Made by a program: the position numbers and the translations under genes
Origin: Deltaproteobacteria bacterium
GTDB lineage: Bacteria; Desulfobacterota; Desulfobulbia; Desulfobulbales; Desulfobulbaceae
DNA: 38,956 nt
NCBI GenBank assembly: GCA_013151365.1
Contig: JAADIK010000021.1
Span: 1 to 38,956, forward strand
Reading direction: 5' to 3'
In this document: piece by piece, positions 7,495 through 38,956 of the stretch
Position numbering within the stretch: position 1 is the first letter of the stretch
How the letters are laid out: each line of letters opens with the position of its first letter
The notes under the pieces: generated by a model
Told to the model about the DNA's origin: nothing
Databases searched by the model: none
Seen by the model: only the letters and a program-made list of their open reading frames with translations

Positions 7495-7643
7495 GCTGTT
7501 AGGTTATAGGCTGTAGGCTGTTAGACTGTAGGCTGTTAGGGTAGGGCTAATAGCCTTCAGCCTAAGCAACCTGCTGGTTTTACATAAATAAAACATGATC
7601 AATTTTCTTGTTTTTTTATGACGGAAATTCAGGAGTAAGGCAC
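7495..7643 (-). repeat. Repeat family C, left copy (inverted relative to 15635..15787)
   Basis: Reverse complement GTGCCTTACTCCTGAATTTCCGTCATAAAAAAACAAGAAAATTGATCATGTTTTATTTATGTAAAACCAGCAGG... aligns almost base-for-base with 15635 onward. Confidence 0.85.
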
Positions 7644-7647
7644 GAAG

Positions 7648-13972: not shown

Positions 13973-13998
13973 AAAAAGATTTTACGGTTAACTTTTGC

Positions 13999-14151
13999 CT
14001 GAAGCCGTGAGCGTTCGACAACGGTGCGGCTGCGCCGTTGCCGGGTGTTCCGCATGGCGGCACGATGAAGACCGGAAAATACGTTTATTCGGCGATAATG
14101 CGATAGATTCAATAAGTCGATGGAGTATCCCTCAAGCCGTTACTGATTCAG
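13999..14151 (-). repeat. Repeat family A, internally deleted MITE-like copy
   Basis: CTGAAGCCGTGAGCGTTCGACAACGG ... CCTCAAGCCGTTACTGATTCAG; same family as 36003..36219. Confidence 0.75.
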
Positions 14152-14492
14152 GTTTTGGTTGTTCCGGTCTGCTCATTGCGGCTGAACGTTTTTTCAACCC
14201 GCGGCAGAGGTTAATGATAAAAAAGATTAATGTCGGATTCTTAGCTGTAATTTCATAAATTGTCAAAGCAATATTCAGCAGAGGGCGCAATGGCAGGTCC
14301 GACTTTGTGGTGTTCGGGAGATCAGGATCGGCAGCCGCATCTTGATCTTGTTTTCGATTATTCAGCCTGTTACGGGTTACGGGAAAATGCCTCCGGTCCG
14401 GCGATACATGGAAAAGACAACTATTACTGGTCAAAACCTTTATGATTTGATAGATTGATCCATTTTCGGTATTGCTATTGCAAATATTATAA

Positions 14493-15634
<1,142 letters not shown>

Positions 15635-15635
<1 letters not shown>

Positions 15636-15787
15636 TGCCTTACTCCTGATTTTTTGTCATAAAAAAACAAAAAAAATGATCATGTTTTATTTATGTAAAC
15701 CAGTAGGTTGTTTAGGCTATAGGCTATTAGCCCGACCCTAACAGCCTAACAGCCTAACAGCCTAACAGCCTACAGCCTACAGCCTAA
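15635..15787 (+). repeat. Repeat family C, right copy, with AACAGCCT/ACAGCCT tandem tract
   Basis: GTGCCTTACTCCTGATTTTTTGTCATAAAAAAAC...CCCTAACAGCCTAACAGCCTAACAGCCTAACAGCCTACAGCCTACAGCCTAAT; inverted partner at 7495..7643. Confidence 0.85.
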
Positions 15788-19942: not shown

Positions 19943-20056
19943 CCCTGCGGGGCGCTCGATAACAGCGCATCTGCCGCGTTGGCAACCGGTTGATATCGCA
20001 GCATGATAACATCGTTGCCGCCCTGCGTCCGCACCGTTCTCGAATGCTCACGGATT
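19943..20056 (+). repeat. Repeat family A, right-half fragment
   Basis: CCCTGCGGGGCGCTCGATAACAGCGCATCTGCCGCGTTGGCAACCGG...CCGCACCGTTCTCGAATGCTCACGGATT matches the second half of 36003..36219. Confidence 0.75.
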
Positions 20057-20333
20057 TTGGCGGCAGGAAAACAAGGTTGTTGCCGAATGTACCCTTTCAC
20101 TCTCAAAGTGTCCACAGAGGAATTGAGCAGCTCGCTTTTTTGCCGTCGGCCGGCGCCCCGGCAGACGATATATCTTTATCGCGTAAATTAAATATGTTAA
20201 GAATCCTGGAAATTCGGAAAACGGGAAACTTCGGCTTTTTTGCCTTGGGGCCGGTCGCAATAATGATGCAAGTCCGGGGTCGGTGTTATTGAAACACCTA
20301 ATCCGCGGTACTTCCCTGTCTCGGTAATCCTCC

Positions 20334-20445
20334 CGGATTCGTGTCGGCTGGAGGCAATAATCTATGCAATATCTGGAATTTATTGCATTATCGTTGAATA
20401 GGCGCATTCTCCGGTCTTGGCCGTACCGCCCTGCGGGGCGGATTT
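20334..20445 (+). repeat. Repeat family A, left-half fragment
   Basis: GGATTCGTGTCGGCTGGAGG...ATGCAATATCTGGAATTTATTGCATTATCGTTGAATAGGCGCATTCTCCGGTCTTGGCCGTACCGCCCTGCGGGGCG matches the first half of 36003..36219. Confidence 0.75.
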
Positions 20446-21272: not shown

Positions 21273-21324
21273 CCAGGTGCGAGACCGCACGCAGCCCGAC
21301 GAACGAATCCAAGGCACGAGTAAA

Positions 21325-21340
21325 ACGCTCACGGATTCAG
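21325..21340 (+). repeat. Repeat family A, terminal fragment
   Basis: ACGCTCACGGATTCAG identical to the right end of 36003..36219. Confidence 0.5.
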
Positions 21341-21417
21341 GGAAATTTCCACGGACACCGGGCTTCGTCCGATAATATTTCTATATTAAGTCACTTAAGT
21401 CACAAAAAGAGGAGAGC

Positions 21418-29644: not shown

Positions 29645-31439
29645 TTTCGGTTACAGTGAAGAGGGCCGGGAGGGATCGCTCCGGGACCTGCATATCTGGC
29701 TGAGAATCCTTCGTTACGGTGCCGGGCATCGGCTGGGCCTGGTCCTGGCCGTTCTCCTGTCCCTGGTGGTGACCGGGGCGACCCTGGGGCTGCCCCGCCT
29801 GATGCAGATGGGCATTGACGGATTTATTATGAATACCCACCTGCCAGCGGTGCAGCGCATTGCAGGGCTTGGCCGGATCGCCGTTGTTTACGGCATCCTG
29901 GTCGGGCTTGTTTTCCTGGCCGGTTTTTTTCAGGTGGTGGTCCTGGAGACGATCGGTCAATGGATCATGCATGCCATGCGCCGTGACCTTTACGCCCACA
30001 TGCTGGATCTCGACCTGGCCTTTTTCAACAACCAGGCCGTCGGCCGCCTGGTCACCAGGTTGACCAACGACATCCAGAACATGCATGAAATGTTCACCTC
30101 GGTCATGGTCACGCTTTTCAACGATTTTCTCAGGCTGGCGGGCATCCTGGTGATTCTTTTCCTCATGAACGTCCGGCTGGCCCTGGTCATGTCCGTTTTT
30201 GTGCCGCTGGCCGCCTTGATTACCGTGGTCTTCTCGCGGCTCGCCCGGGAACGGTTTCGCGACATCCGCCGGCAGCTGGCCCGGCTGAACAGCTTCCTCC
30301 AGGAGGCGATCTCCGGCATCAGCGTGCTCCAGCTCTTTGGCCGGCAGCAGGACAGTTTCCGCAAGTTCGACGTGTTGACCAGGGAGTACCAGGACCTGGC
30401 ACTACGACAGATCAAGCTGTTCGGCACCTTTATGCCGATGAGCGAATTCATGAGTTCTGCCGCCATTGCCCTGATTCTCTGGTACGGCGGCGGCGAGATT
30501 ATAAGGCGGGAGATGAGTCTCGGCGAACTGGTCGCCTTTTTTTCCTACATGCGGCTTTTTTTTCAACCCCTGCGGGAACTGTACCAGAAGTATTCCATTG
30601 TCCAGTCGGCCATGGCTTCGGCTGAACGAATTTTCAACCTGCTCGACACTGAAAAAAGGATCGAGGCCCCTCCGGTGCCGGTGGAGCCGGAGAGGATTAA
30701 AGGCGACCTGGTTTTCGACGATGTCTGTTTCGCCTACGAACCGGACCAGCCGATTCTGCGTCATATCAGCCTGACCGTCGCTGCCGGCGAAACCGTGGCC
30801 GTTGTCGGTTCGACCGGCTCTGGAAAGAGCACCCTGATCAACCTCCTGGTCCGTTTTTATGACCCGCAGCAGGGGAGAATCCTGGTCGACGGCCGGGACC
30901 TGCGGGAATACCGGCCGCATGACCTGAGAAGGATCGTCGGCGTCATCATGCAGGATGTCTTTGTCCTGCCCGAGACGCTGCTTGCCAACATTGTCATGGA
31001 TACGGGCCATGATCGTTCCCGGGTCGAGGAGATCATAAGAGAAACAGGCATGGAGCCGTTCGTGGCCGGCCTGCCCGACGGCCTTGACACGCTGATAGGC
31101 GAGGGGTACCTGGATTTTTCCGCCGGGGAAAAGCAGTTGCTCTGCTTTGCCCGGGTCCTGTGCCGTGACCCGGCAATCCTGATCCTTGACGAGGCCACCT
31201 CCGCCGTTGATTCCGAAACGGAAAACATTCTGGAACAGGCGGTTGTCGCCGGTTTCGAGGGCCGGACCTCGCTGATTATCGCCCACCGTCTGTCAACGGT
31301 GCGCCGGGCCGACCGGGTGGTGGTCATGGACCACGGCCGGATTGTCGAGCAGGGGAGTCATGATGAACTGATGGCCGCCGGGGGCGCTTACTCCCGGCTG
31401 GTAACCCTGGATTTGCGGACCAACGGCGCCGGCCGGTAA
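29637..31439 (+). CDS. ABC exporter, fused TMD-NBD (subunit 2, canonical Walker B)
   Basis: VGSTGSGKSTLINLLVRFYDP, signature FSAGEKQLL, Walker B AILILDEATSAVD, AHRLSTVRRADRV; ATG overlaps the upstream stop region. Confidence 0.92.
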   Translation: MYNFGYSEEGREGSLRDLHIWLRILRYGAGHRLGLVLAVLLSLVVTGATLGLPRLMQMGIDGFIMNTHLPAVQRIAGLGRIAVVYGILVGLVFLAGFFQVVVLETIGQWIMHAMRRDLYAHMLDLDLAFFNNQAVGRLVTRLTNDIQNMHEMFTSVMVTLFNDFLRLAGILVILFLMNVRLALVMSVFVPLAALITVVFSRLARERFRDIRRQLARLNSFLQEAISGISVLQLFGRQQDSFRKFDVLTREYQDLALRQIKLFGTFMPMSEFMSSAAIALILWYGGGEIIRREMSLGELVAFFSYMRLFFQPLRELYQKYSIVQSAMASAERIFNLLDTEKRIEAPPVPVEPERIKGDLVFDDVCFAYEPDQPILRHISLTVAAGETVAVVGSTGSGKSTLINLLVRFYDPQQGRILVDGRDLREYRPHDLRRIVGVIMQDVFVLPETLLANIVMDTGHDRSRVEEIIRETGMEPFVAGLPDGLDTLIGEGYLDFSAGEKQLLCFARVLCRDPAILILDEATSAVDSETENILEQAVVAGFEGRTSLIIAHRLSTVRRADRVVVMDHGRIVEQGSHDELMAAGGAYSRLVTLDLRTNGAGR

Positions 31440-31451
31440 GCTGCGGCGCCG

Positions 31452-31520
31452 GTGGCGGCTTACAGGTTTATGGTATGTGAAACCGCCTGCTTGTAACCAC
31501 CGTGAGGTGTTACGAGATAA
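31452..31520 (+). repeat. Repeat family B, right flank copy
   Basis: GTGGCGGCTTACAGGTTTATGGTATGTGAAACCGCCTGCTTGTAACCACCGTGAGGTGTTACGAGATAA is near-identical to 33431..33500. Confidence 0.75.
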
Positions 31521-33327: not shown

Positions 33328-33334
33328 GGGGAAT

Positions 33335-33442
33335 GTAAGTCGCCACAGGCACCCCATCTTCACGCAGTTGCTCCCGCCCGCATAGAGGGACTATAGCGAA
33401 CGGAAGCAACTACGCAAATCTGGGGCACCTGTGGCGACTTAC
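33335..33442 (+). repeat. Repeat family B, 108-bp near-perfect hairpin
   Basis: GTAAGTCGCCACAGGCACCCCA ... TGGGGCACCTGTGGCGACTTAC plus inner arms ACGCAGTTGCTCCCG / CGGAAGCAACTACGC. Confidence 0.85.
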
Positions 33443-33500
33443 AGGTTTATGATATGTGAAACCGCCTTATATCCTTGTGAGGTGTTACCGGGAAATTAGT
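33431..33500 (+). repeat. Repeat family B, right flank copy (second occurrence)
   Basis: GTGGCGACTTACAGGTTTATGATATGTGAAACCGCCTTATATCCTTGTGAGGTGTTACC matches 31452..31520. Confidence 0.75.
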
Positions 33501-33501
33501 A

Positions 33502-33525
33502 TCACCTCGAGCCGTCACGGATTCA
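33502..33525 (-). repeat. Repeat family A, terminal fragment
   Basis: TCACCTCGAGCCGTCACGGATTCA matches the terminal 24 bp of 11499..11623. Confidence 0.6.
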
Positions 33526-33537
33526 CGGAGTGAGAAA

Positions 33538-34761
33538 ATGCAGCTTTTGCACCTGGCCTTGAAAAATGTCCTGCGCTCCCGGCATCGAACCTGGGTGACG
33601 ATCGCGGCCATGGCCTTTGCCGGCTGCATCATGATATTTTATGCCAGCCTGCTGCAGGGCTGGTTGCGCTCCATGGAGAGGAATGCCGTGGATATGGAGA
33701 CGGGTGAGTTGCAGATCCATGCCCCCGGTTTTCGTCAGGATCCCGACCTCTATAATGTGATTGTCGACGCGAAGGGCGTGATCAAACGGGCTTCGGCGGC
33801 TGGTTTTATCTGCGCCGGACGGCTGCTGGGCAGCGGTCTGGCTGCCGCGGATGAGAATTCCACCGGCGTGAGTATCATGGGCATAGATCCGGGCGCCGAT
33901 GACCTGGTCACCAGGCTGCACGCCCATGTTCAGGCAGGGCGCTGGCTGTCCCGAAAAGAGAACAACGGCGTGGTCATCGGCAGCAAACTTGCCACTATTC
34001 TTGCCGTGCGGCCGGGGAGTGAACTGGTGCTGGTCAGCCAGGCCGCCGACGGTTCAATGGCCAACGACCTGTACACCGTGCGGGGAGTCCTGCAATCGGT
34101 GAGCCGGGAAGTTGACCGGGGCGGCCTCTTTATGACGGCGGCGGCCTTCCGGGCTTTTTTTGTTTTGCCCGCCGGCGTCCATGAAATCGTTTTGCGGCGT
34201 GCGCTTCGCTCGGAATCCCTGACGGCGGCGACAGGGCGCTTGCGAGCCTTGTTTCCGAACCTTGAGGTGAAAAACTGGCGGCAACTGCAACCCACCCTGG
34301 CCCGGTTGCTCGATCTCTCCAATGTCTCTCTCGTTATCCTGCTGCTCATCACCTATGCCGCGGTCGGGATGCTGACTCTGAACGCCATGCTCATGGGAGT
34401 GTTTGAACGGATTCCCGAGTTCGGGGTCATGAAGGCCCTGGGATTTTCCGGCAGCCGCCTTTTCGGCCTGATCGTCCTGGAAACCGTGATCCAGGTCGCA
34501 ATCGGCGCCGCGCTCGCCCTGGTAACCGGGGTCCCGCTTGCCCTTTATTTCTCGGTTCATCCCCTGGACTTTTCCTTTTTGCTCCGCGGTTCATCAACTA
34601 TTGCCGGTATCGCCTTTGAACCCCGATGGTACTGCGAGGTAACCGGCCACAGTGTCCTTCTGCCGGTCCTTTTTCTGTTCGGCGCGGCCTTGACGGCCAT
34701 CCTCTATCCGGCCGTCAAGGCCGCCATGATCAGGCCGGTCGCGGCCATTCATCACCGGTAG
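33538..34761 (+). CDS. FtsX/MacB-like ABC transporter permease A
   Basis: 407 aa; LHLALKNVLRSRHRTWVTIAAMAFAGCIMIF, periplasmic region, C-terminal FtsX domain with YPAVKAAMIRPVAAI. Confidence 0.88.
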   Translation: MQLLHLALKNVLRSRHRTWVTIAAMAFAGCIMIFYASLLQGWLRSMERNAVDMETGELQIHAPGFRQDPDLYNVIVDAKGVIKRASAAGFICAGRLLGSGLAAADENSTGVSIMGIDPGADDLVTRLHAHVQAGRWLSRKENNGVVIGSKLATILAVRPGSELVLVSQAADGSMANDLYTVRGVLQSVSREVDRGGLFMTAAAFRAFFVLPAGVHEIVLRRALRSESLTAATGRLRALFPNLEVKNWRQLQPTLARLLDLSNVSLVILLLITYAAVGMLTLNAMLMGVFERIPEFGVMKALGFSGSRLFGLIVLETVIQVAIGAALALVTGVPLALYFSVHPLDFSFLLRGSSTIAGIAFEPRWYCEVTGHSVLLPVLFLFGAALTAILYPAVKAAMIRPVAAIHHR

Positions 34762-34769
34762 GCCGAAAG

Positions 34770-36014
34770 ATGATGAAACTGAATAAAATGGCATGGCGAA
34801 CATTGGCCCGCAATAAACGCCGCTCACTGATCACGTCGTTTTCCGTGGCCTTCGGGATCCTTTTGGCCGTTACCTTTACCGGTTCCGGGGATTATTCTTA
34901 TACCAGCATGATTGATACCAGCGCCGTCATGGGGTTCGGCCATGTTTCGGTCGAAGCGGCCGGCTATAACGACCGGCCCGGCCTTGCCCGCAGGCTGACG
35001 GAGGCCGGAGTCGTACGTAAGACCGCCCTCGGCCTGCCCCGGGTTGCCGGCGCCTATGCCCGAATCATGGGACAGGCGATGTTCGCCGCCGGTGCCAAGA
35101 GTGTGGGCGGTGTTTTCATGGCTATCGATCCTCAACTCGAGAAACCGTTGCATAATTTTTTCCTGCGCTCCATTGTCAAGGGCCGGCTCTTTGACGATAC
35201 CAATGGACGGGGGGCCGTAGTCGGCGCCGGGATGGCGGTCAAGCTCAATCTCCGTCTCGGCAAAAAGGTCATTGTTACGGTGACGGATAAAAACGGCCAG
35301 TTGACCAGCGAATTGACCAGGGTCTGCGGCATCTTCAAAACCGGGGACGATTCGGTTGACTCCGGCATGGTCCTGCTGCCCCTGGGCCGGATGCGTCGGG
35401 TCCTGAACTATGGGCCGGATGACGCCACCCTGGTCGCCGTGTATGTGAATGACCTGCGGCAGGTCAAAGGGGTGCGGACTCTGCTTGCCGCAAAGCTTGA
35501 CCATAAGGCGGACCTCGAGATCCTGCCGTGGCAGGAAACCCAGCCGGATCTTGCCGGGCTGATCGCCGTGGATCGCCTTTTCAATTATCTTCTGCAGTTT
35601 CTCGTCGGCCTGGTGATTGCCGCCGGCATCCTGAACACCATGCTCATGAGCGTCCTGGAACGGACCCGGGAATTCGGTATTATGATGGCGGTGGGTATGA
35701 CCCCGAGACAGGTGGTGGGCCTGGTCCTGATCGAATCCTTCTGGCTGGGGGTCCTGGGGCTGCTGCTCGGCGTTATCCTGACCGCTCCCTGGTTTGTCTA
35801 CATGAGCCGGGTGGGAATCGATCTGAGCCGGCACATCGGCCAGGATTACAGCGCCGGCGGGGTTCTGGTCGATCCGGTCATGAAACTGCGGCTCTACAAG
35901 GAGAGCGCTCTGGTCATCCTGTTTGCCGCGTTCGGATTGACCATGGCCGCCGGAGTGTACCCGGCCATACGGGCCGGCAGGACCATGCCGGTTGAAAGTC
36001 TCCTGAATTCGTGA
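34770..36014 (+). CDS. FtsX/MacB-like ABC transporter permease B
   Basis: MMKLNKMAWRTLARNKRRSLITSFSVAFGILLAVTF; MSVLERTREFGIMMAVGMTPRQVVGLVL; YPAIRAGRTMPVESLLNS. ORF track start 34626 lies inside permease A; ATG 34770 preferred. Confidence 0.88.
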   Translation: MMKLNKMAWRTLARNKRRSLITSFSVAFGILLAVTFTGSGDYSYTSMIDTSAVMGFGHVSVEAAGYNDRPGLARRLTEAGVVRKTALGLPRVAGAYARIMGQAMFAAGAKSVGGVFMAIDPQLEKPLHNFFLRSIVKGRLFDDTNGRGAVVGAGMAVKLNLRLGKKVIVTVTDKNGQLTSELTRVCGIFKTGDDSVDSGMVLLPLGRMRRVLNYGPDDATLVAVYVNDLRQVKGVRTLLAAKLDHKADLEILPWQETQPDLAGLIAVDRLFNYLLQFLVGLVIAAGILNTMLMSVLERTREFGIMMAVGMTPRQVVGLVLIESFWLGVLGLLLGVILTAPWFVYMSRVGIDLSRHIGQDYSAGGVLVDPVMKLRLYKESALVILFAAFGLTMAAGVYPAIRAGRTMPVESLLNS

Positions 36015-36219
36015 CGGCTTGAGGTGATGCTTCATGCAATATGTGGAATTTGTTGTATTATATGCTGAATAAACGCATTTTCCGGTCTGCACCGCGCCGC
36101 CCTGCGGGGCGTCCGATAACGGCGCATCTGCTGCGTTGGCAACTCGTTGATATCCACCAGGATAATCAACCTCGTTGCCGCCTTGCATCTGCACCGTTCT
36201 CGAACGCTCACGGATTCAG
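36003..36219 (+). repeat. Repeat family A, fullest copy (217 bp, MITE-like)
   Basis: CTGAATTCGTGACGGCTTGAGG ... CCGTTCTCGAACGCTCACGGATTCAG; termini are inverted repeats and the right half is an imperfect long hairpin. Confidence 0.8.
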
Positions 36220-36242
36220 CAACTGAAAGAGATATAAAAAAA

Positions 36243-38690: not shown

Positions 38691-38732
38691 AGACGGCTAA
38701 CCTCTGGTTGTTTAAGGAATACTCTACCCTTG

Positions 38733-38786
38733 TATCCGTGAGCGTTCGAGAACGGTATAGATGCAAGGCGGCGACCATGTTTATTA
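38733..38786 (-). repeat. Repeat family A, end fragment
   Basis: ATCCGTGAGCGTTCGAGAACGGTATAGATGCAAGGCGGCGACC is the reverse complement of the right end of 36003..36219. Confidence 0.7.
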
Positions 38787-38788
38787 TT

Positions 38789-38956
38789 CTATCCCAGATC
38801 TTTTAGGGTTCCGTTTTCAATGCTGAAAATCCAGCCGTGAACGGAAAGCTCCTTCCCCTGTTTCCAGGCGTTCCGGACAATATCCGTATTACAGACGTTT
38901 GTGACCTGCTCTTTTACATTTAGCTCACATAGCAAATCCACCTTCTTGCCATGTTC
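38789..38956 (-). CDS. Beta-carbonic anhydrase, C-terminal part (truncated by window edge)
   Basis: Minus-strand frame reads ...GKKVDLLCELNVKEQVTNVCNTDIVRNAWKQGKELSVHGWIFSIENGTLKDLG*; absent from the ORF track because the start lies outside the window. Confidence 0.82.
   Translation of the reverse strand, partial: EHGKKVDLLCELNVKEQVTNVCNTDIVRNAWKQGKELSVHGWIFSIENGTLKDLG

Follow-up and report, generated by a model that had tools for sequence, protein, structure and literature searches.

Insertion sequences of the ISEcp1 group, in the IS1380 family, have CC-ended terminal inverted repeats (TIRs) and a 5-bp target-site duplication (TSD). Among small elements, the Chunjie MITE of Geobacter uraniireducens is ~235 bp long, has TIRs and direct repeats, and is found in dozens of intergenic copies and as an insertion in an operon (reviewed in PMC10969869). 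The ERIC and Correia/NEMIS sequences are small intergenic repeats present in up to hundreds of copies, whose transcripts are predicted to fold into stable stem-loops (PMC10969869, PMC2229807). Here we analyze a repeat family found in a stretch of 38,956 nucleotides (the window, by which we mean the whole stretch of DNA under analysis) that comes from a fragmented 2.18 Mb MAG, 82% complete (G000). The comparisons presented below indicate that this family is very probably an IS1380-type MITE.

The window has one full-length copy of 219 bp, on the minus strand at 36002..36220 (hairpin-first orientation). A preliminary description had placed a 217-bp copy with TIRs at 36003-36219; the copy and its TIRs are real, but each end is one base further out, because the conserved end of the family is CCTGAATCCGTGA and the 5-bp duplications start outside CCTGAATCCGTGA. 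The family TIR has 13 bp, with a mean column identity of 96% over 101 copies of the congener BMS3Bbin14 (G001). In the window copy, one TIR reads CCTGAATTCGTGA on the plus strand (36002..36014), and the other, at 36208..36220, reads GCTGAATCCGTGA on the minus strand, its outermost base having changed from C to G. Between them, all on the minus strand, we find a covarying hairpin of ~100 nt that we call P2 (36109..36207), a mini-hairpin P3 (CCC..GGG) together with the 5′ arm of a stem P4 (CGGC, which pairs with 36015-36018) at 36096..36108, and a variable domain of ~77 nt (36019..36095) that across lineages keeps its length and not its sequence. As had been reported, there is no plausible ORF within the 219 bp: the element is short, non-coding, and without a transposase. 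No promoter or terminator was found when the element was scanned for them.

The copy sits between an FtsX/MacB-like permease gene (34626-36014, upstream) and an ABC ATPase gene. The earlier characterization of all copies as intergenic is nearly right, except that the TIR starting at 36002 provides the TGA stop codon (36012-36014) of the permease gene. The flanks, AGTCT and AACTG, no longer present a target duplication. When the two flanks are joined and compared to relatives, the site is empty in G105 (an uninterrupted match, 1-600 over 592 bp) and in G015 (18-600, nearly the whole stretch uninterrupted), but it is occupied in the congener G001, where the joined-flank match has a 226-bp gap. 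Thus, the insertion is old, which explains the missing target duplication, and it was most likely in place before the two congeners diverged.

Other pieces of the family are found throughout the window. Those that we confirm, either by repeat search and profile or by the hairpin model, are a 127-bp form without P2 (11498..11624, plus strand, hairpin end first; a deletion between CCGT repeats, with TSD ACTAT), an internally deleted copy of 155 bp (13998..14152, plus strand, TSD TTTTG), a half copy with the hairpin end only (19943..20059, minus strand; repeat search, profile, and hairpin model), a half copy with only the other end and the variable domain (20331..20440, minus strand; repeat search and profile), and a 60-bp hairpin-end fragment (38730..38790, plus strand). 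There are also two short end fragments, one at 21312..21341 (minus strand), which is weak alone, and another, CACCTCGAGCCGTCACGGATTCA, at 33502..33526. The 27-base end has 4 matches in the window and none in 100 shuffles, while the 12-mer alone, allowing 2 mismatches, has 14 matches versus 9.3 expected, which is not significant; because of that, only the longer end matches argue for the fragments at ~21325-21340 and 33502-33526.

Other repeats coexist with this one. Another small repeat family (...CACCTGTGGCGACTTACAGG...), unrelated to the first, occurs in the window at 31438-31488 and 33334-33467, and an apparent copy of it lies inside a MITE in G001 (C6:127963-128396), flanked by an apparently repeated ACCTTCGA. 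A dispersed repeat, TTGGGTAAGCAGGCCAACGAATCTATAGTAT...CGCCCGAAGATGGAGTG, is a MITE insertion site, with cases in the regions of C17:13077 and C9:129567 of G001 and in contigs C76, C6, C21, C8, C55, and C124 of G000. The window also has a pair of TAGGCTGT-rich inverted repeats (7499-7646 and 15632-15787), ~150 bp each and ~8 kb apart.

Is this a mobile element? We looked for further genomic copies, and in the window's genome there are at least 40 near-full-length matches with 86-100% identity (40 scored of 270 candidates). A profile search reports 126 matches in a sampled 0.93 Mb of G000 (37 of full length) and 207 in 1.19 Mb of G001 (101 of full length). The congener has 402 exact terminal 12-mers, and none of the reversed pattern. 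Using CCTGAATCCGTGA...TCACGGATTCAGG as the element ends, 79 of 137 full copies have exact, AT-rich 5-bp target duplications, compared to a shuffled mean of 1.0 (maximum of 6), and direct repeats of other lengths show little or no excess. Empty-site alleles, which we also looked for, are many between the congeners, with joined flanks that match uninterrupted and the 5 bp present only once; the site of the window copy, as described above, is empty in two relatives. The standard element keeps to a length of 217-223 bp in all the Desulfobulbales lineages that were sampled (14 genomes of several families), and it almost always has the 5-bp duplication. About 93% of full copies fall between called genes. 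A search of plasmid and phage collections for the element gave no match. The mobile-element reading proposed in the preliminary description is thus supported by copy number, by the 5-bp TSDs, by the empty sites, and by the TIR-matched IS1380 elements in relatives that we present below.

The fold of the element is conserved. RNAalifold proposes a TIR stem, the P2 hairpin of ~100 nt, a 3-bp mini-hairpin, the 4-bp stem P4, and the variable domain of ~77 nt. Pairing is maintained in 98% of the alignment cells, and 15 base pairs have changes on both sides. The number of cells changed on both sides is 47, versus 10.3 ± 2.5 in shuffled controls and 6-9 in slid controls, that is, the covariation is above what the controls produce. 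When searched for with a covariance model, the hairpin turns up in 66 of the 258 genomes of the class sample, all of them in one order by their listed kinship. Outside the class sample, but within the phylum, there are strong matches in one genome at least (G382, with 11); weaker phylum-level matches may or may not be the same element. No family in Rfam 15 matches the element at either curated or lax thresholds. Across lineages, and on one strand, G-U cells outnumber A-C cells (34 vs. 13, p = 0.003, with cells that are not independent), a strand asymmetry of the fold that is only suggestive of a role as RNA.

What could the hairpin be for? We can separate variants that are private to one copy from those common to at least three copies, in a test that assumes a correct alignment and ignores recombination between copies, a sign of which was seen. 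Singleton variants per column are similar along the element (0.58 in the TIRs, 0.47 in paired P2, and 0.58 in the variable domain for G000; 0.54, 0.54, and 0.45 for G001). Variants common to at least three copies are not: per column they amount to 0.15 in the TIRs, 0.08 in P2, and 0.58 in the variable domain for G000, and to 0.46, 0.45, and 1.07 for G001. Relative to the variable domain, shared variants are depleted both in P2 (Fisher p = 1e-4 in G000 and 8e-4 in G001) and in the TIRs (p = 0.02 in G000 and 0.02 in G001), and the depletion in P2 extends to its unpaired positions. Private P2 mutations, on the other hand, are mostly pair-breaking (21/35 and 31/40) and have no strand preference. 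Because the constraint acts on variants that spread and is absent from mutations private to one copy, these results suggest that the hairpin matters for the propagation of the element, and not for the host at each site. In the simplest reading, inserted copies would be unprotected, and the structure, like the TIRs, would be needed by the lineages that spread. On balance, we favor that P2 acts in cis for propagation, either as DNA or as RNA. That a long internal hairpin appears to be as constrained as the ends was unexpected.

A host-site role has been proposed before for Correia/NEMIS and ERIC, and here too the hairpin could be kept because it benefits the host wherever it has landed, for example by acting as an RNase III site, an mRNA stabilizer, or a regulator of operon transcripts. 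The RNA-like fold with its G-U pairs on one strand agrees with such a role, and so does a weak bias among the copies inserted between same-direction genes, of which 50 of 80 have the hairpin on the gene strand (p ~0.03, uncorrected). We regard it as unlikely, though, given that P2 and the variable domain have private mutations at similar frequencies, that those in P2 mostly break pairs and show no strand preference, and that rare G-U and A-C variants are about equally numerous, so that individual copies look unprotected. Even less probable is an origin of the paired changes in template switching between the two arms during replication (quasipalindrome correction), without selection on structure. 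Long hairpins are prone to it, and in many copies P2 is deleted at one and the same short repeat; but template switching would erase internal mismatches, when the internal loops and G-U pairs of P2 persist across families, and the depletion of shared variants in P2 includes the unpaired positions.

One of the size classes bears on the propagation role that we favor for P2. Besides the 219-bp form, there are classes of 244, 127, and 55 bp, each with exact-duplication examples. The 127-bp forms without P2 (25 found, 11 with exact TSDs) may be the product either of their own transposition or of recurrent deletions; in the first case, P2 would not be strictly required. In the 244-bp class, the 5′ arm of P2 carries an insert of 24 bp, and the exact-duplication copies found for this class all belong to G001. 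Grouping the size classes by their variable domain says little about the mobility of the 127-bp forms, since even the 244-bp copies, with their shared 24-bp insert, do not cluster. Minimal forms of 55 bp, little more than the two ends and some with exact 5-bp duplications, can be seen in G001 (C3:206381 and C6:49413) and in G000 (C115:13798, C21:10481, and C167:14411).

The preliminary description had argued that any transposition would depend on a transposase acting in trans, and we looked for one with matching TIRs. The 5-bp duplication together with the CC-ended repeats pointed to the IS1380 family, and a search for IS1380 in relatives found transposases bounded by exactly CCTGAATCCGTGA. 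A genome of the same family (G026) has a complete insertion sequence (L048) of 1650 bp, with a 444-aa transposase, CCTGAATCCGTGA at both TIRs, and TSD TTTTG; the IS1380 assignment is by NF033539 and PF13701. Two genomes combine the MITE with a complete IS1380 element. One is SKS1.bin83 (G203), with exact TIRs at C10:2-13 and 1649-1660 around a 459-aa transposase, and whose sampled MITE copies are 97-98% identical; the other is G066, with one TIR mismatch. The congener G001 has, at a contig end, the first 105 residues of the same transposase subfamily. (The elements of G203 and G066 and the fragment in G001 were placed by coordinates, that of G203 against JAJZRJ loci.) The locus orthologous to 36002-36220 lies ~3.3 kb away from this fragment (C23:7-318), whose position is slightly beyond what would be the end of the window's contig.

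The insertion sequences and the MITE have no sequence in common beyond the 13-bp TIR, and thus the MITE did not arise by simple deletion from the insertion sequences that we have seen. The hairpin model run on their loci gives weak, end-level matches only, and the MITE interior is not derived from them. An IS1380 element in the MITE-rich genome G043 (L046) was rejected as a source, as no matching TIR was found, and other CCTGAATCCGTGA ends in G000 and G001 that might have been hidden insertion-sequence ends were, in those examined, all MITE copies or pieces. Most high-copy MITE genomes have IS1380 fragments or nothing, and in a tally of 258 genomes, MITE and transposase occur together in ~9, versus 7.7 expected by chance. 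This lack of a clear association can be reconciled with a repeated gain and loss of transposases, and is not positive evidence.

From the IS1380-type TIR and TSD, we infer that the mobilizing enzyme is an IS1380 transposase. The MITE, having no transposase of its own, would rely on a DDE transposase of the IS1380 family, provided in trans by an insertion sequence, either co-resident or transient, that has the same CCTGAATCCGTGA ends. The transposase would cut the MITE and insert it into AT-rich 5-bp targets, which become duplicated; insertions would persist almost only between genes, operon interiors included, where the TIR can give a stop codon, and afterwards each copy appears to decay neutrally. 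That a different, unseen transposase family moves the MITE, or that the MITE is now immobile in G000 through transposase loss, is very improbable: in favor are an assembly (82% complete) in which no IS1380 transposase gene was found, many MITE-rich genomes without a complete one, and no pair of full copies above 96% identity in the sampled part of G000, but several independent insertion sequences match in TIR and TSD length, a contig end of the congener encodes the N-terminus of a transposase of that subfamily, and SKS1.bin83 combines a complete element with near-identical MITEs. With an IS1380 transposase as the enzyme, the hairpin could tentatively be seen as a cis module required by the IS1380 DDE system, or one that aids the MITE in hijacking the transposase or host replication. 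If true, IS1380 transposases would have a requirement of a new kind, a structured DNA or RNA part kept order-wide.

Whether the family is active or recently active, as had been suggested from its density, receives a mixed answer. Identical pairs in G001 and the copies of SKS1.bin83 favor it, but the signal is weak in G000, where the full copies of the sampled part (n = 36) have a mean pairwise identity of 88% and a maximum of at most 96%; identical copies could have been lost at the contig ends of this fragmented MAG. The claim is then partly supported, with recent activity shown for relatives and less so in the window's genome. In another MAG, C14-07 (JARGFN; L204-L206, L212, L230, and L264), many contigs stop within ~35-60 bp of the element's end, which is what recent activity would produce, with near-identical copies interrupting the assembly.

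The IS1380 link, the 5-bp TSD, and the covarying hairpin are additions of the present analysis to the preliminary description. A literature search, with subscription papers largely outside its coverage, found no description of this MITE family, which is not proof of novelty. An IS1380-linked MITE family spans many families of one order, at a density that makes it a main source of genome change in these uncultured, sulfur-cycling lineages. With hundreds of copies available for comparison, one can directly test which MITE parts are important for spreading, and a hairpin of the size of P2, absent from Rfam, is now searchable and testable.

How does the family compare with known systems? The named insertion sequence ISAzo40, of the IS1380 family, has the TIR CCTGAATCCGTGT, identical to that of the MITE at 12 of 13 positions, and its TSD, AGTTA, has 5 bp as in the MITE. 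Unlike the IS1380-family insertion sequences, the MITE has no transposase gene and measures 219 bp versus ~1.65 kb, with only the terminal 13 bp in common. Chunjie, which belongs to another organism and can be compared by description only, shares with it the size range, TIRs, direct repeats, intergenic copies, and operon insertion. ERIC and Correia/NEMIS resemble it in size, copy number, and stem-loops, but they have other hosts and other ends, and the MITE is set apart from them by its 5-bp TSD, its IS1380 link, and a covariation measured across an order.
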